Below, one piece after another: positions 45,001-59,490 of a DNA stretch of 64,000 nt. The notes below the pieces were generated by a model that saw nothing but the letters and a program-made list of their open reading frames with translations, searched no databases and was not told the origin of the DNA. Source of the stretch: Liolophura sinensis (Eukaryota; Mollusca; Polyplacophora; Chitonida; Chitonidae); NCBI RefSeq assembly GCF_032854445.1, contig NC_088300.1, forward strand, positions 75,073,005 through 75,137,004, in the 5' to 3' direction. Position numbers and translations under genes: made by a program. Every line of letters begins with the position of its first letter. Positions within the stretch are counted from its first letter, which is position 1.

Positions 45001-48000
45001 GCACCTTATCTATTTTCTTTGAAATTATAAAACAAAAGTTTAAATAACACAAACCTCATTACAACCACAAGGACATTTGACTCCAAGTTCATCATCATCT
45101 TCCATTTCCGCTTCTGGTCCTGATGGCTTCTTGCTTGTTTTCTGTCCTGTTACAGGTAAATTAGATGACTCAGACAAAAAACATCAAAAATTTTCAAATG
45201 ATTACATCCCTTATATATTTAAGAACTAGGGTAAGCATTTCAAAAGACAGCAGTCCTCCCTTTAAAACAAATGAGCTGAAAGGAATATCCAATATGTTTA
45301 CTAACACTGTAAATAACAATTGGTTGAACAGTAACTGAGGATTGGTTATCTGAACTGGTGATGACGTCTTAAAGCATATAAAGACATGTGACAATGTCTT
45401 CATGCTTTCCAACTATTTAGCCAACCGCTGGGGTTGGGAAATGGAAGTGTAAAGTGCCATGCTTGTTTGGTATTGTTGTGCAGGTCAGTGTTTCTCCTAT
45501 CCAATGTCACACATTTGCGTTAGGCCTGACGATTAAACTCAAAGACTGCAGCAATTAAGAAATAATTTCTAGAATAACTTTTCCATAAAGTACAACTCTT
45601 TCAGCCTTACTTTTCCAAAACTGACATTTTATCAACAAAATCCAGTCTTTAGGGAATTAAATAATATAACATAAACCAACCTACTTTCCTAAAATTCTTT
45701 AACTAACTGCACACAAACTTTTTAATTTTTGGCTTCACCTGGTTTGGCTGGGCTTTGCAAGGGGATATCCTCACAATGTTCAGGTACCAGAGCTGGTTCT
45801 TTCTTCTTTCCAGAGTTTTCTGTCTCCAAGGTTGTGCTAGTGGTCATTTCATCTGTTTTCTGCAAGGAAAACAATTAACAAAAGTAACTAAAATATTCAT
45901 AAGAAGCCAATCATTGCTACTAGTATTTTGACACTGAGCATCTTTAATATTAAGAAAGATAATCATTGTTTTCATGATTACATCGAAAAGTATAGAATTT
46001 ACAAACGTATATCACATCACCAATTTATAGTTCATGTGGGTGATTTATTTACAATGCTGAGTAAAATAATCATCAACAATAATCATCAAATTATCAACAA
46101 AAGAAGATTAAATCTGCCGTCTTGATTACTCTGAACCATAACAGACAAAGAAAATGTAATCATTCAGTCCATTTCTATCATAACATGTATTTACTTCAGT
46201 GAAGTTTAATGCCATACTCAACCAGGCTTATATGTTGATTCACAGTCTTATGGCATTTAGATAAACAGAAATCCAGAGCAGGATACACAGAGCAATGCCT
46301 CTGATGAATTGGCCAGTAACAACCCTGTCAGCAGAGTACTCCATGGGGTCTATAAAAATCTGTCACATGATCATGCTAAATAGCTATTAAATGTAAAGTT
46401 GGATTTCCTTGACCTAACCAGGGAGTTGCAAATAAACAAACCATGTCAATATCTTGGTTCTCCACTTCAAGTTTGCCGTCAGTGGCGTCCTCAATTTTAG
46501 CATCCTCTTCAGCATCACTTTTGAGCTCAAACTGTTTACTGTCTGTTTTAATTCTCATTTTAACACTAAACAGGAGAAAAAAAAAACACCAAATAATGCT
46601 ACATCATACAATTTTTTCTCAAATTTCTACTTACACTCAAGGGCAGAACTGATGTGTAATTGTCTCCTCTTATCAAATAAACAGATAAGTTTTTTTTCTT
46701 AATCCCAGATAAAATTGGACCATTGCTCAAAGAGACTATACTGGAGATTTTTAGCAAAAAAAATTACTTTTCACAAAATATCACACAAAAGAGAAACTAA
46801 AAACAATTAGTTTTGGCCATTTTCATCAAAGATTAGACAATTTGAAAATCCTGATTTCATCTGAAATCAGCCGATCAGCTCTTGTCTGTACAAAAATTAT
46901 TGTTCAAAACTGAAGTTCCTAATATTTATAAAGCAGGTTGCATTATGATTTTTTCAAACTTAAGAATCATTTTTTACACTACAAATAATACAGATCCGAG
47001 TCTGATATTTACTGAAAGGCAATAATTTGAGCTATGTTAAGTAAATAGAAAAAATTTTATTTGATTAGCAAATATGTTTTTTTTTTAGGCAAACATCTCC
47101 GGTATAGTTTCTTTATTAATCAAATTATAATGAAGAGTACTTATTAAGCGATGGATAAGTTGTGTTTGGACAAATTACATGAAGAAAGGTGAAACTAGAA
47201 TTAGTATGAGGTATGTAAACGGTGCACAACCAACTATCATATCTGCATAAAAGTGTGCCTGAAAATACCCTGCATACCTCACAATCACATGGCAGCTTAA
47301 TGACCCAGGTGTCTCTCACCAATGCGGTCGCTGTGAGTTCAAGTCCAGCTCAGGCTGGCTTCCTCTCTGGCCGTAAGTGGGAAGGTCTGTAAGCAACCTG
47401 CGGATGGTCGTGCAGTTTCCCCCGGGCTGTGTCCGGTTTCCACCCACCATAATGCTGGTTGCCGTCGTATAAGTGAAATATTCTTGAGTGCGGCATAAAA
47501 CACCAATCAAATAAATAAATAAATAAACACAATCACATGAGACACTTATAAGTGGGAGTACACATGGATATGTGTCTTCTGCTGGTACTCAACATTGCTT
47601 TAATTTTATAATGGTGGTACGTTTTTGGACTGGAGGATAACATATTCAAAAAAAAACTAGTGCTTCAGATATCAGGCTGAAACCATATGCTGGACTTAAT
47701 GGATGGATGGACTGACAGACGAATAGTTTTTGGGCAAAAATAATTCCAAACTTGGTTTCATTCAAAGGTACCAAGAAACCAAACTTGAGATAAGTTCAAA
47801 AAGTTCAGAAGATATCATGCACAATTCAAACACCAGACGGACAGATTAAGTTGAAAAACAGTTAGGCACAAGCAGGTAAGCAATACCAAGCAGGGTTTCA
47901 TATCAATTTATATTGTATCTACATATACATGGATATGCATGTAGGGTGCTGGTGAATTCCAATTTGGGTAAGTATATGGTGAGCATGTGATACACAGTAC

Positions 48001-51000
48001 TCAAAGCTCATCTGGTACAATGATTTATTAATGGCACTGTCTTTACATGTATCTCTGCTAGCATCAATTACAATGTAAAAGCTGATGTGCAAAGTCGTGT
48101 ACCTTTTTGACGCACCAAATTGAAGTTATCTATGACAATGTTCATTGTTTTGTGAAAGAACTTTCAGTTGTGGGGCCATCTCTGTTGAGCTTTTCAGATA
48201 AAATTGGGTACACTGATATGGATTTTTATTTTGGCTAATGAAGACAATTTAAAGAAATTGACATTCATGCAAGAAAAGTAAAAAAAATAATAACTTCTAT
48301 CAAAATCCCATCAAAAAATTTACACTAAGGCCATTTTTGGCAGGTCAGGTCATGTTATACCCAATGAACACATTCTTAATTTTGGCCTTCTGTACATACA
48401 CAGTAGGTAGTGAATAGCGTATACAACATTTAATCAGCAACAGAAACTGACATGTTGACCGGAATTCTTTTCACTTATCAATGACTGAGTACAGCTGGCT
48501 GGTAGAATGGAAACAGAAGTATTTGTAGGGATTAGTCTTCTAATAAAGGTAATGCTAAGGAAATCTCCACATTCAAAAAGCATAAATAGAGAAACTTACC
48601 AATGGAAAGGCTGTTATTTTCAAGGTAACATTGACATGAAAAATGGAAGGAAAGAAGTTTGTTAACTATACTTGAAAGCATCCGCATTTTAAAAGAAGGG
48701 TTAAATGATAAGGATCAATAAAATTTGGACTGTATTCAATATGGAAACAGAATATTTCTGTTACCGCTTTGACCTGACATTGTGTCATGCACAAACAGAT
48801 GCTGCAGGTCCCCATTACTGGGACATTAATTAACACAAATGATGTGAAACAATGAAAACTGCCTTATTTTCAGGCATAATCCAAACTGTATAGAAACTAC
48901 TAAAGAGTTTTTGAGTACACTTCAATAAGTTACCTAATACACATTACATGGCAATATATATGTACATCAAATTTGAAAAATATGTTTTAACAATGGGTCC
49001 ATATCTGTCCTGAAAAGTTTTCTTTAAAATTTCAGTTTCTCTTGGAACTGAAGTAGCTCTTTACAAACAATCATCAAATTCATATCATACCTGGGACCAA
49101 TCATGTAAATATGTACAACATGTATAACATGGCAACATCATTAAGGGGACATAACTCTGTGCTATGATTTTTCTCGCCAACCATGTCATTGTCTGAAGAC
49201 CACTGTCCTAGGGTCAACTTTAAGTATGCAGAGAAACTCACAGTTGCAACATCCCCAACTTTGATATTCATGGGTTGTTCTTCGAAAACAAATGTATCTG
49301 AATCAGACGGTCGAAATCCAGGGGGCTCATAATCCTCAGGTGTAACTGCAGCAAAGAGCAAAGTTTCCAACATAATAAAAATAAAAGACTTTAACATTGA
49401 TTGATATTTTTAATCTGAAGTCATATACAAGTCAGTGAAAGTGTAGTTTTCTACAGACCATGCAGGCGATTGTCTCTGTTATTGAAGCCAAGCCTGCTCA
49501 TCTACAGTGAAGATTGGTGTTGTCTGTTTACTTGCCATCCCGCTTTCTCCTACAATGAATTGTCACAAGCACTGGCTTGGTGTTTGTTGTTATAACTTTT
49601 TTCACCCTCCTAACAGACTGGTCTTCATGAACTTGTGTACAATCAACACAGTAAAACAAAACTACATCTCTCAGTCAATATTGTGAAATACTCAGACCCT
49701 TTTACGCCATATCCAGAAAGATATACAAACAAAGACAAATCATCACACTGATTGGTCAGATTGGACAAAATGATCTGGCTGACTGGTCAAAATGGAGGTC
49801 TCAATTCCGTCACCTTGCTAGAGTTCTTCACTGCCAGGGTCTGAATTAAAATAACTGTACTGCCACATACAGCAACCACAAAAGTCAGGCCATTCTGGAT
49901 TCCCTAACCTTGGTTGCACTGTCAGGCAAGGCTATCAACTTTACCAGACTTTTCCTTTAAGATACTGAAGGCAGCAAACCAAAATAAAATACAAAGTAAT
50001 TCTCTAAAATCTCCATAGCCTTATTAAAGGACACGTAACAAATTCAAAATAGGTTCAATTCATTTATTTATTTATTTGATTAATGTTTTACGCCGTGATC
50101 AAGAATAATTCACCTATACAATGGCGGCCAGCATTATGGTGAGAGGAAACCAGGCAGAGCCCGGAGAAAACTCACGACCATCCGCACGTTGCTGGCAGAC
50201 CTTCCCACTTACGGCCAGAGAGGAAGACAGTATGAGTTGGGCTTGGTCTCATTGTTTAATACATGCAGTTAAAAATATTTACAGGAAAATGGAGAACAGA
50301 TGGGCAAAAGTACAACAAACTTGCTAAAAATCATTATGGCTCTTCCTCGTGACAAAGTGTAAGTGTCATACAGGTTTGGTAAACGTAAATTCAATTGGTC
50401 AAGGGATAAAGGGTTTACCGGAAAATAGCCGGACAAACAACCTGATGGATGGTCAAAGGGAATAATGATTGGTCATGGAAATTGAAACTACAGTGTTCAT
50501 CGACATGCCAAGGTTTGAAAGTTTGGTATGCTTAGTGAACCTGATATATTGTGTTAACAAACCTTTTACAAAATTTAACATCGATGAACCCAATGACCTT
50601 GAAAAAATGGGTGAAGGTCACTGAAAATCTAAAGGTTCTTTCTCAGGACAAATTGTACGTGTGGTATAAGTTTGGTGAACTTTGAAAGGGCAAACAGGCA
50701 GAAGGACGGCCGACGACAAACTCTACCACAATATCCCTAGGCCAATACTGGCCGAGGGGTAATAACTATCAATATGCATGTACATTTACTTGAGCTTGGC
50801 CAGATTACCTTCATCAAAGTACAGAAGTTTCATAGTCATCATGACATCATCAGGCAATGATTTGAGTGTCTGTGTCAACACAACAATGGTTCTAAGCAGC
50901 CTTATAGTTGCCTTCTTTGTTTCTGCAGCAGTGGCTGCACTTGAAACTTTCTTGTCGTTTCTGTAATGAAAAGACATGAAAAAAAAAAAACAGGTAAATC

Positions 51001-54000
51001 TATGGATTTCTGATAAAAGAGAAACTTTTTTTTTACAAATCGATGCATGACATTACAAATATATGTTCCTACAATATTCCATAATCCTTATTGCTGACAA
51101 CCTGTGAGGGGTTATAACCTATAAAATAAAAGAAATACATTCTTGAAACATGTTTAAGTAAATGATAAAGTTCCAACGTTTCTTTTAAACACTTTACATA
51201 GAGATATGATTTGTAACAATTCACACAATGAGGTGACTCTGTCACGAATTTTTTTTTTATCCCCTTCTCTGGAATGTGATATACTTTTTACGATCTTTCA
51301 TTTAGCATGATGTCTTGGGATCAAAATTACAAATGAATTCCCCTGAAATCCTCAGTCACCAACCTGTAGATGTCAATTCCTCCACCTTCTGTGTACGAGA
51401 ACTTGAAGGTATAAGACTCAATAACTGTCTGTAAGCAATAAAATAAAAGACATAAAAGGCTCAATTTGTTTGTGTTTTTTGTGGTAGTAGTGTGCATGCA
51501 TCTGTCATGACCTGCTTGATAAAAACAATGAATAATTATTCTATTACACCACAAATTTGTTCTAGCTTGCTAACTACCAAATTAAATTTAAAATCAAAGT
51601 TTTCTACCTAACTGTACAGGCTCACACAGGATGAATAATGATGTCCAAAAAGACCACTGTGTTAAACTGGTAAAGATTTGGAAAAGTGAGCTTTCTGAAA
51701 TGCAGAGGCCTTCACAAATGCATCAAAAAGACCAGACAAATCTGTTAACTTAAAACAACTTCAGCAGATTTTGTACATAAAGGAAAAAACAAAAAGTCTT
51801 AACGAAGTGTAGCAAAACAGAATATAAATAATAATTTCATTCATGAACTGTACAGTGTTAAATCTATTCATGTATAAATGAAAAGTATTACATAATGTTA
51901 ACATTTTCTGCTCCTACATTGGTCAATCAAGCAGCAGAGTGCATTTAGAATAAACTTACATCTTGGTCTTCAGGGTCCAAATATATCTAAAAATCAAAAA
52001 AAAAAGAATAAATTAAAGCTCTTACATTCCTTACAGTGATACCAGTGGCCAAGATTTAAGGCCCAAATGAATGTCAAATAAGAAGACACTATGAAAGTAA
52101 TGCACTGAACTAATTTGCCATAATCGGAAAAATCAAGCTTTGGAAAACATCTGTTTACAAACAGATGCTAACACATATAACGACAAATAGCTTTATTCAA
52201 CTGCCGAAGTACACATACACATGATTAAGTATGTACATTTCAGGTTGCTCGACACATGGTGTGCAATTACCCCACTCTAGGTCCCATCTGATTTGCCTAG
52301 ACTCAGTTCAGTTTTGAGAACGGGTATGGACAGAGTGCACGTAAGTGACAGGAAATGTTAGAAGACTATGAAAATATGAAATTTTGGTCTAACCAGTTAC
52401 TGGAATAAGCAATGTTGTATGTTCATGTCTAAAGCCATGGTGTATGGTTTCGTAGTTACTTTTCTATCCTCAAGCCCATCTCTTCCTCACATGTATGTAT
52501 GGTCTAGACCTGAACTGTGTGGATAGACATTTTTAGTATCTTTTGGCATGGCTTTGGACTTTTATTCCTGATAGCATGGTGGTATGAGGGAATGCTGTCA
52601 CGATTGTTGAGAATTACCCATGGTGCATTGGGAACAGGGCTGGCTTTACATGCAACCATTGAAAATTGTCTGCTGATAGCTGTGGTGTGGGGGGGGGAAA
52701 GCTGTTCATTTTTCGGTTTGAGTAACAGGCAGCCAACATATGGAGGAGATTATCTGCAGCACATGTATAGTAATGCACAATTACATCTAAAGTCTATGTT
52801 ACATGCACAAGGCTCCGTTTTCTATTTCTTATGTAGGGTGGTGTAATTTAAATATTTCTAGCAAGAAAACTATAGATCGTAGCTCAAATCCATTGGCATG
52901 CACCAGAAATGACATGTCTTGGGCTTCAATCTGGTGCAGGTCTCAGGTTTGTACCTTTTGTTGTTCTTGAGGCCATTGAAATTACGCGACTAAAACAAGG
53001 TTTTGGCCGTATCTCAAAAAGTTACAAAGGTAGGCAAAATTCGAAAGCAGCTTCAGAATCAGCATTGCCAAATATTGCGAATAGATGAAAACATCATCAA
53101 ACTTAAACACTTTTTATGGCGTCATAAGTTTGACCAATAGCGAGCTTCCAAATTTTTCAATGCATGTCCAAGATTTTTTCAAACTTGTTCTGACTAGGAT
53201 CACTCTACAAGTTGATCAAATTTCAAAAGAATCTGTTTGTTGGTTCTTGAGAAGAAGATTTTAAAAGTTTTGATCAAAATAAAGATGGCTGCCATGTCAC
53301 ATGACCACATTAACCAAAAACAGTCCAAATTTGCCTCGTAACCTTGTTCCTAAAATCACCAAATTCAACAACATCCAACTTTTCCACTTTGCTTTTTACA
53401 GCTCTTAAAGCTTTCAAAAGCCTTTCACAATAACGGAAGAAAAATAATAAAAATCTGAACGATTTCATTAAGTGTCCCAGCACAGAGTGGTAGGCCACCT
53501 AAAACTATGTATTGCCATCTGGTCACTTACTGAAATCATGACTTCTCCTCTTGATTTTCTGCAACAAGCTCATAACGCAAATTAACCTATCACAAGTGAC
53601 ACTGACCGATGTTAACTGTATTATCCGCGAACTACGATCCTCTGTCCCAGGTCATATGTTGAAATCAGTCTCAGACTATTTCACCCTTTTCTCATACAAT
53701 TAACCTTTCCTTTAGAACTGGCATTATCCCAACACTGCTAAAAACAGGTAAAGTAACAACAATCTTTAAATAAGGTGATAAAGCTACTTATGATAACTAC
53801 AGTCCGATTTTGATACTACCTGCTATCAGCAAGACTGTACAAAAATCAGTCGCCCTTCAACAAGTTGATTTTCTAGACAAAAATGCCATAGTAACAAATA
53901 CTCAATACCGTTTTCCAACCATTCAAGTGTACACGGCGCCACTGTTCTATACGAAAAATTAGTTTTGGCCAAGGAACAGCGCAAATTCAGCTCAGTCACT

Positions 54001-57000
54001 TTTACTGACCTGTCCAAACCTTTTGACACAGTAAACCATAATATATTGCTACAAAAACTATAGCCTTATGGCTGTCAGGATACAACAAATGACTAGTTCA
54101 AGAGCTATCTGTCCAACAGGTCACAATGTGTTTAATATAAAGAGGCCATCTCACCTCTGTCACCAACTGACTGTGCAGTTCCCCAGGCATCCATATTATG
54201 ACCCCTAAGTTTTTAGTCCATACAAATAACATAATCAACTCTTAGTCTCTTCTCAATTTCATTCTTTTTGCCAATGACACCAGCCTTCATTTTTCTGGTT
54301 ATAATATTCAGGAAATTGTTACTACGACAGGTGAGTTGGAGTTCAACACTTGTTCCTTGCCAATATGCTTGTACTAAATATTAATGCATGATCATTAAAC
54401 CGCACAAGAAATTACTCCCTTCACATATACCGAAAATAAAAACAGACAGCTATGAAACAGAATTTGTTGAAGATTTCAGGTTTCTTGGCGTTGTTTTCAG
54501 TGCTAACCTGTCATGGACATCACATATTACATACACTTCAAATAAATTTTCTCGCAACATAGGAATCACAAAACGTGTCAAGAAATTGATGAACAACCAC
54601 TTCTGACACTGCACATCTCCCTAATTCTACCCTACCTTTCCTATGCAAATGCACTTTGGAGTAACACCTACAGGACTCACCTAAACCCCTTGTATATTTT
54701 GCACAAGCAGACAATCCGCATTATAACTTCATCACACACACTAACGCACACCCTGCCCTTGTTTCAACAACTAAAAATCCTTGATATATTTCAACTAAAC
54801 ACTTTCTCTTGCCTCCAAACTGTCCATAAATTTATATATAGCCCCTTTATCCTTCCAAAGTTTCAAAATGTAGTTTGATGTACACCTTTACCCTATGGGA
54901 AATCAAACACTAAATCTCCATGGACTTTTTTGAAGAACTAACCTCTCTGTATATTTCATCCATTCGAAAGGCCCTCGAGAATGGAACAAACTTCCCCAAT
55001 ATCTCCAAACTATCAATTCTTTTTCTCTATTTAAAAATAAACTAAACTTCTCATTATTGTGGAATCAGATCCCTAGCAACAAACTAATTTATATCACACC
55101 ACCATCAGCCAGCCTTGTATCTTGTCATATCGTTACATATATGCATGTCCAGTTTTTCTTCTCTAATTATACTCGCAATATGTACTTTTAACTACATATA
55201 TGATGGGAAAGAAGTCCACCCAGACTTTATTCCCGCCTTGCAGTCACTTAAACATTTATTTATAATCACAAATGTTTATACATTTGTATTCAGACTCTTG
55301 GTAAATAATACACAAACACAGAAATAAATAAATAATTATCTGTTTACTTGATTGGTGTTAATCCTACACTCAAGAAATTTTTATCAGATGACAGAACAGG
55401 ATTTAGGTCTGGAGGAAACCAAAGTTGCCATTATAACCTTAGCTATTCATCAGGTACCTTATGAACAACTTGACTTGCAGCCAAAGGCTAAGCAGTGAGA
55501 AATGCATTCAACACGGTAGTCATAGCAAACCAGCACTAAAATGGCCCGTCAGTGAGGGCCTTTACAGGTGAAACATGTTTGATTTTTTTTTTTTTTTTTT
55601 TTTTTGATTGGTCTTTTACGCCGTACTTAAGAATATTTCACTTATATGACGGTGGTCAGCATTATGGTGGGTGGAAACCGGGCAGAACCCGGGGGAAACC
55701 CACGACCATCCGCAGGTTGCTGTCAGACCTTCCCACGTACGGCCGGAAAGGAAGCCAGCATAGGCTGGTCTTAAACTCACAGCGACCGCATTGGTGAGAG
55801 GCTTCTGGGTCACTACGCTGCACTAGCGCACTAACCGACTGAGCCACGGAGGCCCCGAAACATGTTTGAGGTATATGTATAGAATAGATACATACAAACT
55901 GAAATACTTTGAATTCAATCATATGTGTACATTATTTTACAAAGTCTATTACACAAACTATATTATTTTACAAAATCTAAAACTCTGGCTTCTTATACTC
56001 ACACCAATAACGAGCATCCGCAGCTACAACAAAAAGTTAAAAACCAATTATAATTGTATTTTTCGGTAAACTTTTTTGCTTTAAAACTCATAATACAACT
56101 TGTCTTATTTTTTAGACACTGAGTAAACGTGATGTAATTCTAGCAGGTATGTTGAGTTTCTTTTTTCTTGTGTGGTTAGAACACCACACAACATACAAAC
56201 AACATACTTGCATCTTTACTTTTCCAAAAGGCTGGTAAAGAAATATAATATTCTACTTTTAACACTACTAATATCTGTCCCAAATTTTAGAACAATTAGG
56301 ATATTTAGCATACATGTACACCATAACATGTTTTTGTCGCATCATTATTTTGAACCTTGAATGAATACTTCATTAAATGATGGTCTGATGGAGACAACTG
56401 CTGATTAGAAGGCTACAAGCGTATCTTAGAAAAAAATTTTAAGCATACAAAATTAAACCAATTTCAAATGATCATTTCATTCTCAATAACTGTTTGTGTG
56501 GTAAACAAATTTTTGTATGTGTCCCATTCGTGATTTTCACAGAATTGCATCAAACAACAGTATAACTCATATATGCTTACATATTTTTTGTCAAGTGCAT
56601 CAAAGCATCCTTTGACCCACTTGATGACTTGACATGCTCCAGGGCAAGATGTATCATCTCTCAAAATTTTCAAGTTTAAATCTGAAATGAGGGAGTATAA
56701 AATCATAAATGCTAAAAGCTACATTCTGAAAAAAAAAAAAAAACATGACTTGTATATTTGATTTCAATGTACTTACTTGCTCTTATGATATTAAGAAGTT
56801 GAGATGATGGACCTCAAGTGCTATAGAGTCTATGGGTATATACAGGTATGAATAACAAGTTTATTCATTTATTCCATGTAGGCGAAGTTTCAAAGTAGAC
56901 ATTACCACTTTAACATGGTTGTCAAAAGTATTGATTATACTGCAATAAACTAAATATTTAAAAAGAATGTGCTTTAAATGATTTCAAACATATGTTGAGT

Positions 57001-59490
57001 GACTTGTAGAATTAAACAATAAACAATCAAAATTAGGATAAAAAAGGTAGAATACAGGGTTGCTTTGATGTAGATCAACTAATTACAGATTAACAGTAGG
57101 TGGTGTCCTACCAGTCATCACCAGATATAAGGTAGATACATGTACTAAGGGCTTGGAATACCAAAATCTGTGAATTGCGCCAGTCTGCTGTCATAAATGT
57201 CTGTAGAAGATAAAAAGCATGGCCAAACACAAAGCATAAAATACCTTGTGGCTCGACTATGTAGCTCGCAACCTGTTTGATTTCCAACAGTCTACAACTG
57301 CTTCTAACTTAATAACCTGAAAACCAACATGATGAGAGAAACCTACCTTCAAGGCAACGATCACCAAATGCATGCTCAGGAAATATTGCCCTCAAATAAG
57401 TTATGTTAGATATAGCTACTGCTAGAAGCTTTTTCACAAACAATGCAGACTGCTGTTGAGTCACTTGCTCATTGGGGAAGATTGCTGACCACTGCAAAGA
57501 AAAATCCCAAGTTCCACACAATATAAAAATACAAAAGTATATACACATGTAATATTCCTCTCTGGCTGGTCTTCCATGGGAAGGTATGCCAGGAATCTGC
57601 ACCTGGTCATGAATTCCCCCCATTATAAGCCCTGTTTCCTCCCACCATAAAGTGAAATATTCTCGAGCATGGCGTAAAAAACAAATAAAACATAATGTTT
57701 ATACTCTAAATTTACCATTCTACCACTCTACAATTCATTACCATTTATCTGAACGTACTTTTATATGAAACAATCCAAGCCAAAAGTTTAAGTATCTAAT
57801 TGCAGCAATCGTAGAAGAGTCTATCTAAACATGGATTCATTGATGTCAAACTTTTACGAAATGAAATTCAAAACTTGAATTTTCGACAGGGGTATAAGAA
57901 AGTTTTACTGGGACCAGGTAGGAATCTGGATTGAGTTAATTTTTTTTAAAACCAAAGCAAGTTCTATGTTGTATTGTGTACTTATCTGTTTCTATAGATA
58001 TCTATGAACATTCACTTCACAGTTTCATTTGTTAACTTTTTCGGAAAACAACCAATGGCATGCAAATTACATTTACAGGTTGGGCAAGAATAAACAACAA
58101 CTTATAAGTAGATCTAGAATGTTGAATTCAAAAATGTTAACAACTTTCTACACACACTACAATTATAGGTGAGTTTCAGTGAAAGAATTAATTAAAAAAC
58201 CCTCTGTTTAGTTATTTTTCTATTTACTTAAATATGCCCTACATTAACACTGAGTAAAATTAAATTAAATTAACATTGAGTTACTTCCCTTGTTGAGCCA
58301 CCCATTTGTTTATTTATTTGTTTATTTATTTGATAGGTGTTTTACGCCATACTCAAGAATATTTCACTTACACGACGGCAGCCAGCATTATGGTGGGTGG
58401 AAACTGGGCAGAGCCCGATGGAAACCCACGACCACCCGCAGGTTGCTGGCAGATCCTCCCAAGTACAGCCGGAGAGAAAGCCAGCCTGAACTGGACTTGA
58501 ACTCACAGCGACCGCATTGGTGAGAGGCTTCTGGGTCATTGCGCTGCACAAGCGGGCTAACCAACTGAGCCACAAAGGCCCACCCCATTTGTTGAACATG
58601 GTCCAGAACTTGGCTGGTTCCCTGCCCCTCACATCAGATGGCGCTAATTACATACCCCACATGTCAATTGGGTAAAGGGAGATAGCCTTGACAAGTTTCT
58701 AGTTTAAGCAAGATGACACGTGGACACAAACGATATATGATGTCTAAGGGCTCAGGTAGCACACTGGCGCAAAAAACAACTGATTTCGAAATACTGACAT
58801 TGGATTCAAGCAGATAACAGCCCTAGGTAGGGCAACAAGTGGACAAGTTGGAAGTTGAGGGCTTTATTTCTTGAATTTCACAGACACTGTGTGGGGCCAG
58901 TCAAAAGTCAATTCATACCTTTACTTCTTATATATATGTATAAGGCATGTAAGATTTATGGACTGAATTCAAGGTCCTGTGGTCTGCTTTTCTCTAGTCA
59001 AGAACGCTTTTACTGTTATTTCTGTCTGTGTCCTCAAAACGAGGCTAATGTATGACTTCCTATTTTTAATACAACAACGTGAAGAGTTACAGTTACAATT
59101 CACAGACTGAATTTTGAAATAAACTGAGTGGTTAAAAGGTAAAGAGACAAAAAAACGTGTAATAATACATATTTTATGATAAGTAACCTATAAAATTTAT
59201 AAACAAATTTTACTGAAAATATTCAGTTTTCAACCACCTGACAAAACAGGGTTATAAACTCAATTTTACAGACCGAATATCAGTTTGTAAATACGACGTA
59301 TATCAATCCCCGCTAAAGAACAGTCTCCAGATATTTTTTAAATACAAGAGTATACAAGAGTGCATGACTCTTGATGAAATTTGGTCATTCCAATTCAATG
59401 TATTCCTTTTTGCTATAAGGTTGAGTATTATCTGATTAAAGTTACATTTCCAGTCTTCTCCTGTGAGCGTAATGCTTGTGCTGTTGACAT
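36024..59490 (-). CDS. HORMAD1: HORMAD / Hop1 meiotic axis protein with PHD and winged helix
   Basis: This HORMA-domain protein of the meiotic axis promotes double-strand breaks and controls synapsis and checkpoint signalling. Coding exons on the minus strand: 59490-59446, 57491-57347, 56681-56581, 56023-56003, 51986-51960, 51428-51364, 50960-50809, 49345-49242, 48610-48600, 46565-46442, 45859-45739, 45146-45055, 43529-43413, 41213-41148, 40866-40703, 40592-40508, 39915-39829, 39437-39336, 38517-38404 and 36122-36024. Phases close; total 1842 nt, 613 aa. The HORMA domain is about 16-235 ([52 protein letters not shown]). An acidic linker follows, then a PHD finger (C330, C332, C344, C347, H352, C355, C370, C373), a winged helix (about 376-452) and a lysine-rich tail ending [14 protein letters not shown]. 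Human HORMAD1 is about 394 aa and lacks PHD and winged helix. The start MSTAQA fits the human N-terminus. Confidence 0.96.
36640..37110. repeat. Degenerate repeat in the last HORMAD intron
   Basis: Similar phrases recur in order about 170-200 bp apart: gagtttaaaagtcg, gaagtttaaaagtc and gagtttgaaagttg, each followed by agacatggg, agagaccaa or cagaccca, and later by ccattc, caaggagta or taaggagta and aaaagtgac. They look like three old copies of one unit. Confidence 0.4.
41600..41725 (+). mobile_element. SINE family B, partial, in HORMAD intron
   Basis: It starts tttgattggtgtttaagcca, then a ggctgccatcattatggtgg block and cacaaccatccgcagg. The tRNA-like end is lost. It is antisense to the host gene. 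Confidence 0.75.
47292..47527 (-). mobile_element. SINE family B with 12-bp target-site duplication
   Basis: Read on the minus strand it runs from the aaataaataaat tail, through cggcaaccagcattatggtg and catccgcaggttgct, to the tRNA-like accgcattggtgagag segment, cut within the head. The perfect 12-bp repeat cacaatcacatg (47280-47291 and 47528-47539) bounds it. It sits in the HORMAD intron next to the 11-nt micro-exon, in sense orientation. Confidence 0.9.
48600..48610 (-). other. HORMAD1: HORMAD micro-exon, 11 nt
   Basis: The 11 bases cctttccattg lie between an acag acceptor and a consensus gtaagt donor. Without them the neighbouring exons join out of phase and hit a stop. With them the protein reads [16 protein letters not shown], which lines up without a gap to the STPFHIFKVKVTTE region of vertebrate HORMAD1. 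The polypyrimidine tract is weak. Confidence 0.8.
50055..50265 (+). mobile_element. SINE family B, partial, in HORMAD intron
   Basis: It has atttatttatttgattaatg, then ggcggccagcattatggtga, accatccgcacgttgctggc and cttacggccagagaggaag. The tRNA-like end is decayed. It is antisense to the host gene. Confidence 0.8.
50338..50760. repeat. Probable dispersed repeat in HORMAD intron
   Basis: Two related phrases (ctcgtgacaaagtgtaagtg near 50345 and ctcaggacaaattgtacgtg near 50642) are each followed by a form of gtttggt(g)aac. In between is the run aacatcgatgaacccaatga. The segment ends in acggccgacgacaaactcta and ggccgaggggtaa. It has the look of a moderately old interspersed element. I cannot assign a class. 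Confidence 0.4.
51960..51986 (-). other. HORMAD1: HORMAD micro-exon, 27 nt
   Basis: It encodes IYLDPEDQD, bounded by tttttag and gtaagt, with phase 0 on both sides. It lies 4 kb from the 21-nt micro-exon, with a LINE remnant in the intron between them. Confidence 0.88.
53540..55330 (+). mobile_element. LINE (non-LTR retrotransposon) remnant, RT part
   Basis: Shifted frames still show reverse-transcriptase landmarks in order: an [17 protein letters not shown]-type block (near 53790), [20 protein letters not shown] (near 54000), a QCV-type turn (near 54120), AVPQAS (near 54178), the catalytic region as FANDTSLHF (near 54270, Asn where Asp is expected) and [14 protein letters not shown] (near 54478). 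Beyond these are a Jockey/CR1-type C-terminal part with [14 protein letters not shown] and [13 protein letters not shown]. It ends near an aaataaataaat tail. In-frame stops and frameshifts make it dead. It lies antisense in the HORMAD intron between the 21- and 27-nt micro-exons. Confidence 0.85.
55335..55445 (+). mobile_element. SINE family B, decayed fragment
   Basis: The phrase tacttgattggtgttaatcc, then tacactcaagaaatttttat and ggaggaaacc, recalls family B at low similarity. Confidence 0.4.
55595..55860 (+). mobile_element. SINE family B, full length
   Basis: It starts with a T run and gattggtcttttacgccgta, continues with cagcattatggtgggtggaa, cagaacccgggggaaaccca and catccgcaggttgctgtca, and ends with a tRNA-like head that reads on the minus strand ggcctccgtggctcagtcgg ttagtgcgc (A box). 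A ggtcgctgtgagtttaag B-box-like stretch is also present. It is the best copy of the family here, and it is antisense to HORMAD. Confidence 0.92.
56003..56023 (-). other. HORMAD1: HORMAD micro-exon, 21 nt
   Basis: It encodes LRMLVIG between KKY (previous exon) and IYLDPEDQD (next exon). A gttgtag acceptor and gtgagt donor border it. It keeps phase 0 on both sides and fills exactly the segment that human HORMAD1 has here (LRMVVLA). Confidence 0.85.
57545..57690 (-). mobile_element. SINE family B, old partial copy
   Basis: The minus strand shows a tttgttttttacgccatgct start, ctcgagaatatttcac and tttatggtgggaggaaacag. The rest is diverged. Confidence 0.6.
58311..58583 (+). mobile_element. SINE family B, full length, with 10-bp duplication
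   Basis: All family B blocks are present, from gataggtgttttacgccata to the tRNA-like end ccaactgagccacaaaggcc. The 10-bp repeat cccatttgtt lies at 58301-58310 and 58584-58593, consistent with a target-site duplication. It sits in the first coding intron of HORMAD, antisense. Confidence 0.88.

Follow-up and report, generated by a model that had tools for sequence, protein, structure and literature searches.

An 11-nt coding microexon that very probably completes the HORMA domain of a chiton HORMAD/Hop1 gene

Exon 2 of human MPC1 is only 4 nt long, and 67 nt of its upstream intron together with 6 nt of its donor are enough for recognition (PMC9929638). In mouse, microexons that are constitutively included carry stronger splice signals than the neuronal ones (PMC7821500), and the neural microexons of vertebrates belong to an nSR100/RBFOX/PTBP1 programme (PMC8831610, PMC7821500). 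In plants, microexons of 1-15 nt are conserved and pervasively misannotated (PMC8831610), which makes it plausible that gene predictors would also miss an exon of 11 nt such as the one described here, in the HORMAD/Hop1 gene of a chiton. Our literature search found no paper that paired HORMAD1 with a microexon or HORMAD1 with a chiton; the mouse Hormad1 knockout paper reports sixteen exons and does not give the exon lengths near the microexon site.

We traced this gene, which sits at about 75,119,446-75,132,494 of its contig (C6), exon by exon on the minus strand of the window (the whole 64-kb stretch of DNA analysed), and exons 1-10 all joined in phase through AG/GT sites (Table 1). The product matched human HORMAD1 (8j69_A) over residues 11-237 with E=1.3e-75, and Pfam HORMA (PF02301) was covered over profile positions 1-209 of 209 with 212.8 bits, identifying a HORMA domain of the meiotic type. 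Downstream of exon 10 the gene encodes a PHD finger (PHD_5, 34.1 bits), and the PHD and winged-helix region matched Hop1 of the sea star Patiria miniata (9MYP, E=8.7e-64) and of Schistosoma mansoni (9MUG, E=1.9e-33), both of them crystallised chromatin-binding regions (PMC12365614). The presence of this central chromatin-binding region (45146-40508, minus strand) places the gene with Hop1. The region is found in animals outside the vertebrates and most nematodes; vertebrate HORMADs have lost it (PMC10907721). Searching the whole genome (609,464,459 bases, 632 contigs) by HORMA family, by protein sequence and by spliced DNA revealed a single locus and no second HORMAD copy, paralogue or retrocopy, so that the present copy should be the working one. 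Likewise, scans of bacterial and archaeal genome contigs and of viral contigs for stray animal DNA gave no relatives.

Table 1. Positions of the exons and of the signals flanking the microexon, numbered from the first letter of the window.
Feature	Position	Strand	Length	Sequence or product	Remark
Exon 1, coding part	59490-59446	-	45 nt		HORMA domain N-terminal part (exons 1-7, 50809-59490)
Exon 2	57491-57347	-	145 nt		HORMA domain N-terminal part
Exon 3	56681-56581	-	101 nt		HORMA domain N-terminal part
Exon 4	56023-56003	-	21 nt	LRMLVIG	HORMA domain, phase 0-0
Exon 5	51986-51960	-	27 nt	IYLDPEDQD	HORMA domain, phase 0-0
Exon 6	51428-51364	-	65 nt		HORMA domain N-terminal part
Exon 7	50960-50809	-	152 nt		HORMA domain N-terminal part
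Exon 8	49345-49242	-	104 nt	...NIKVGDVAT	Phase 0 end, donor gtgagt
Branch-site candidate	48661-48665	-		TTAAC (YTNAY)	A at 48662, -52 from the microexon; consensus only
Pyrimidine tract	48633-48656	-		TTCTTTCCTTCCATTTTTCATGTC	21/24 Y, most pyrimidine-rich 24-mer of the intron (2,676 nt)
3' splice site of microexon	48611-48612	-		AG	First AG in 55 nt
Exon 9, putative microexon	48610-48600	-	11 nt	CCTTTCCATTG	Phase 0 to phase 2; P-F-H and first two bases of C
5' splice site of microexon	48594-48599	-		GTAAGT	Perfect donor
Exon 10	46565-46442	-	124 nt	(C)VKMRIKTD...	Phase 2 start, donor gtttgt
Downstream exons	45859-45739, 45146-45055, 43529-43413, 41213-41148, 40866-40703, 40592-40508	-			Frame continues from exon 10; with the exons after 40508, PHD-winged-helix region and linker
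Further downstream exons (after 40508)	39915-39829, 39437-39336	-			Less certain
Predicted spliced order, exons 8-9-10		-		...GATGTTGCAACT/CCTTTCCATTG/TGTTAAAATGAG...	
Junction with inclusion		-		GATGTTGCAACTCCTTTCCATTGTGTTAAAATGAG	
Junction with skipping		-		GATGTTGCAACTTGTTAAAATGAG	

Several other features of the locus were recorded. Three of the first ten exons are shorter than 30 nt (21, 27 and 11 nt); those of 21 and 27 nt are multiples of three in phase 0-0 and could be skipped without a change of frame, unlike the 11-nt exon. The exon 10 donor (46441-46436, minus strand) scored as weak with the matrix, at about 0, and its join to exon 11 is still in frame; exon 12 has the same unusual gtttgt donor. 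Several of the HORMAD introns contain repeated copies, in both orientations, of a tRNA-like SINE whose tail resembles ttcttgagtatggcgtaaaacaccaatcaaataaataa (58590-58330, 55880-55600, 50250-50060 and 47510-47300). No Rfam match to a structured RNA was found between 38000 and 60000.

The reading frame is interrupted at the intron that separates exons 8 and 10, which spans 2,676 nt. Exon 8 closes in phase 0 (GTT GCA ACT, then gtgagt), and exon 10, which follows tttag and starts with TGTTAAAATG, opens on the last base of a codon whose first two must come from upstream. Joined directly, the two exons read GDVATC*, that is, VAT-C-stop, in agreement with the sequence-only reading, which had reported that the exons ending at 49242 and starting at 46565 clash in phase and run at once into a stop. 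That reading had also proposed an 11-base segment with a perfect gtaagt donor as the missing piece. We found it at 48610-48600 of the minus strand, in the context aaaataacag/CCTTTCCATTG/gtaagttt, and every coordinate given for it and its neighbours was correct. Its length is 2 modulo 3, and with a canonical AG acceptor, a GT donor and 11 nt it falls among microexons, taken as internal exons of 27-30 nt or less. In-frame TAA codons flank it two codons upstream and directly downstream (aaa TAA cag CCT TTC CAT TGg TAA), so it cannot be extended in its own frame; a longer exon around the same site was thereby ruled out.

With the 11 nt included, the predicted protein aligned without a gap to human HORMAD1 across the site (nvgevstpfhifkvkvtte in the human protein, where VSTPFHIFKVKVTTE represents the letters at the same place), bearing out the gapless match to the vertebrate protein that had been claimed earlier. 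The insert therefore restores the frame and at the same time encodes residues that are conserved in homologues: its His is matched by His in human HORMAD1 and, in C. elegans, by His in both HIM-3 and HTP-2. The Pfam HORMA score rose from 207.3 to 212.8 bits with the microexon (+5.5 for four residues), and the last profile position (209/209) was reached. By alignment, the Pro-Phe-His of the microexon falls at residues 238-240 of HTP-2; in HTP-1, to which HTP-2 is closely paralogous, the safety belt comprises I227-S248 (PMC13381836). This places the microexon product within the safety belt, the element that closes on partner motifs.

We conclude that 48610-48600 is very probably a real and normally included coding microexon that forms exon 9 of the chiton's single HORMAD/Hop1 gene. 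In the mechanism we propose, the microexon would supply Pro-Phe-His and part of a Cys to the C-terminal HORMA safety belt, and its skipping would yield Thr-Cys-stop, depriving the protein of the remainder of the belt and of its entire chromatin-binding half. Since 11 nt do not make up whole codons, inclusion is required for the last safety-belt strand, the PHD finger, the winged helix and the tail, and because skipping would remove so much of the protein, constitutive inclusion in germ cells is to be expected. The restored frame enters an intact PHD-winged-helix chromatin-binding region, indicating that the gene is not broken.

The signals around the exon give a mixed picture, with a perfect donor and the best pyrimidine tract of the intron, yet an acceptor that scored -5.7, the lowest in the gene, on a 20-nt matrix built in part from a generic one. 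This low score reflects the A-rich 15 nt that precede the AG. The case for the acceptor rests instead on the pyrimidine tract, which is set back from it, and the low score is the main weakness of the model. Downstream of GTAAGT the intron is U-rich (T at 15 of the next 30 bases, against an intron mean of 35%). Recognition would most likely proceed through these flanking-intron signals, namely the GTAAGT donor, the long pyrimidine tract, a distant branch site and an AG preceded by 55 nt free of any other AG. Special splicing support for so small an exon is plausible; use of the exon in mRNA, its constitutive inclusion, the branch site and any helper factors are all predicted at this stage.

A different possibility is that the microexon is real but regulated, and that skipping acts as a switch to a truncated HORMA domain or to a transcript subject to nonsense-mediated decay. 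Skipping does give an immediate stop, a length that is not a multiple of three and an unusual acceptor would permit regulation, and microexon events that create a stop are known, such as that of the 20-nt Bak1 exon (cited in PMC9929638). However, we saw no sign of skipping in the sequence and identified no regulated partner, and for an exon that a conserved domain requires, constitutive inclusion with strong signals is the commoner reading (PMC7821500). We therefore regard a regulated microexon as unlikely, and equally doubtful is a form of it in which inclusion is regulated in the gonad and sets the dose, or yields a belt-less form, of this meiotic axis protein.

It was also considered whether the 11-nt match had arisen by chance, the gap being bridged in reality by another small exon or by shifted splice sites of exon 8 or exon 10. 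To this end we enumerated all inserts within the 2,676-nt intron that were bounded by AG and GT, measured at most 120 nt and restored the frame without a stop, and scored each against the human HORMAD1 segment with BLOSUM62. The earlier statement that the 11-base segment was the only short insert to repair the frame calls for qualification, since 99 inserts do so, some of them with better acceptors by the 20-nt matrix; what stood was its rank, far the best with a score of 54 against 36 for the runner-up. None of the alternatives encodes the missing TPFH, and in this respect the microexon is unique in the intron. It also came first among 5,504 candidates of up to 60 nt from both strands of the whole window, where the runner-up scored 47 and had a poor donor. 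In dinucleotide-preserving shuffles of the intron, 54 was reached in 18 of 20,000 cases (0.09%) when any GT donor was accepted, and in 0 of 20,000 when a GTRAGT donor was demanded. When the donors of exon 8 and the acceptors of exon 10 were freed and a longer segment was scored, the microexon model obtained 72, as compared with 53-55 for the next best three-exon solutions and 40 for the best join of exons 8 and 10 through alternative sites without any insert. Selecting by the splice-site matrix alone (score > 0) was tried and rejected, as it gave only poor homology and missed the microexon, owing to the A-rich last 15 bases before its acceptor. Taken together, these comparisons make a chance match very unlikely.

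Finally, the frame clash could itself be read as damage, in a decaying gene copy or through an assembly error, but this is highly improbable, as all other exons join in phase, the PHD-winged-helix region is intact and strongly conserved, no second gene copy was found in the genome, and neither exon edge contains the missing codons, a deficit that an error of one or two bases cannot explain.

Elsewhere in the same genome, we observed a 15.2-kb mitochondrial contig on which the tRNAs E G Q W Y C M, in this order, precede the small rRNA, and cox1-cox2-D-atp8-atp6 lie on the other strand, an arrangement that is the one of chitons. Another contig (C99, loci L014-L019 and L021) carries seven head-to-tail copies of COX1 spaced about 15.5 kb apart. 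These copies probably reflect either mitochondrial sequence that was concatenated in assembly or a large array of mitochondrial DNA in the nucleus.

Adding the microexon corrects the gene model of a protein central to meiosis. A model that lacks the 11 nt predicts a prematurely ended HORMA domain and no chromatin-binding half, and it could pass for gene loss or for a split gene in comparative work on HORMAD evolution. The locus illustrates how genome sequence by itself can settle a frame clash within a conserved domain, and microexon-aware annotation in molluscs gains a clean case on which to be tested. A gonad RNA-seq library of Liolophura japonica is publicly available (sample SAMN35319768; PMC11068029).

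At the protein level, the homologues of the chiton gene that share its HORMA domain include human HORMAD1, C. elegans HIM-3 and HTP-1/2, and the Hop1 proteins of Patiria and Schistosoma; the last two also have the PHD-winged-helix region in common with it, in contrast to the vertebrate HORMADs (PMC10907721). With respect to splicing, the strong donor, the set-back pyrimidine tract and the AG-free zone resemble those of constitutive mouse and human microexons (PMC7821500, PMC9929638). Like MPC1 exon 2, the chiton exon is a tiny coding exon that is not a multiple of three, lies between long introns and is critical for the frame, and its candidate signals (TTAAC at -52, the pyrimidine tract and GTAAGT) fall within the span that is sufficient in MPC1. 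The two differ in that inclusion of the MPC1 exon has been demonstrated by experiment and the exon is conserved across species, whereas the chiton exon is predicted from genomic sequence, and also in the gene concerned, the chiton exon belonging to a germline context in a mollusc. The small microexons of plants are similar in being tiny exons of conserved genes with U-rich flanking introns, and were missed by annotation, but they belong to plant genes with plant splicing signals and have no homology to the chiton exon. With the neural microexons of vertebrates it shares the size class; those are regulated, mostly multiples of three and neuronal, whereas the chiton exon has 11 nt, is frame-critical and sits in a meiotic gene. 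Constitutive coding microexons that are not a multiple of three are known, if uncommon, and the chiton HORMAD exon adds one more.
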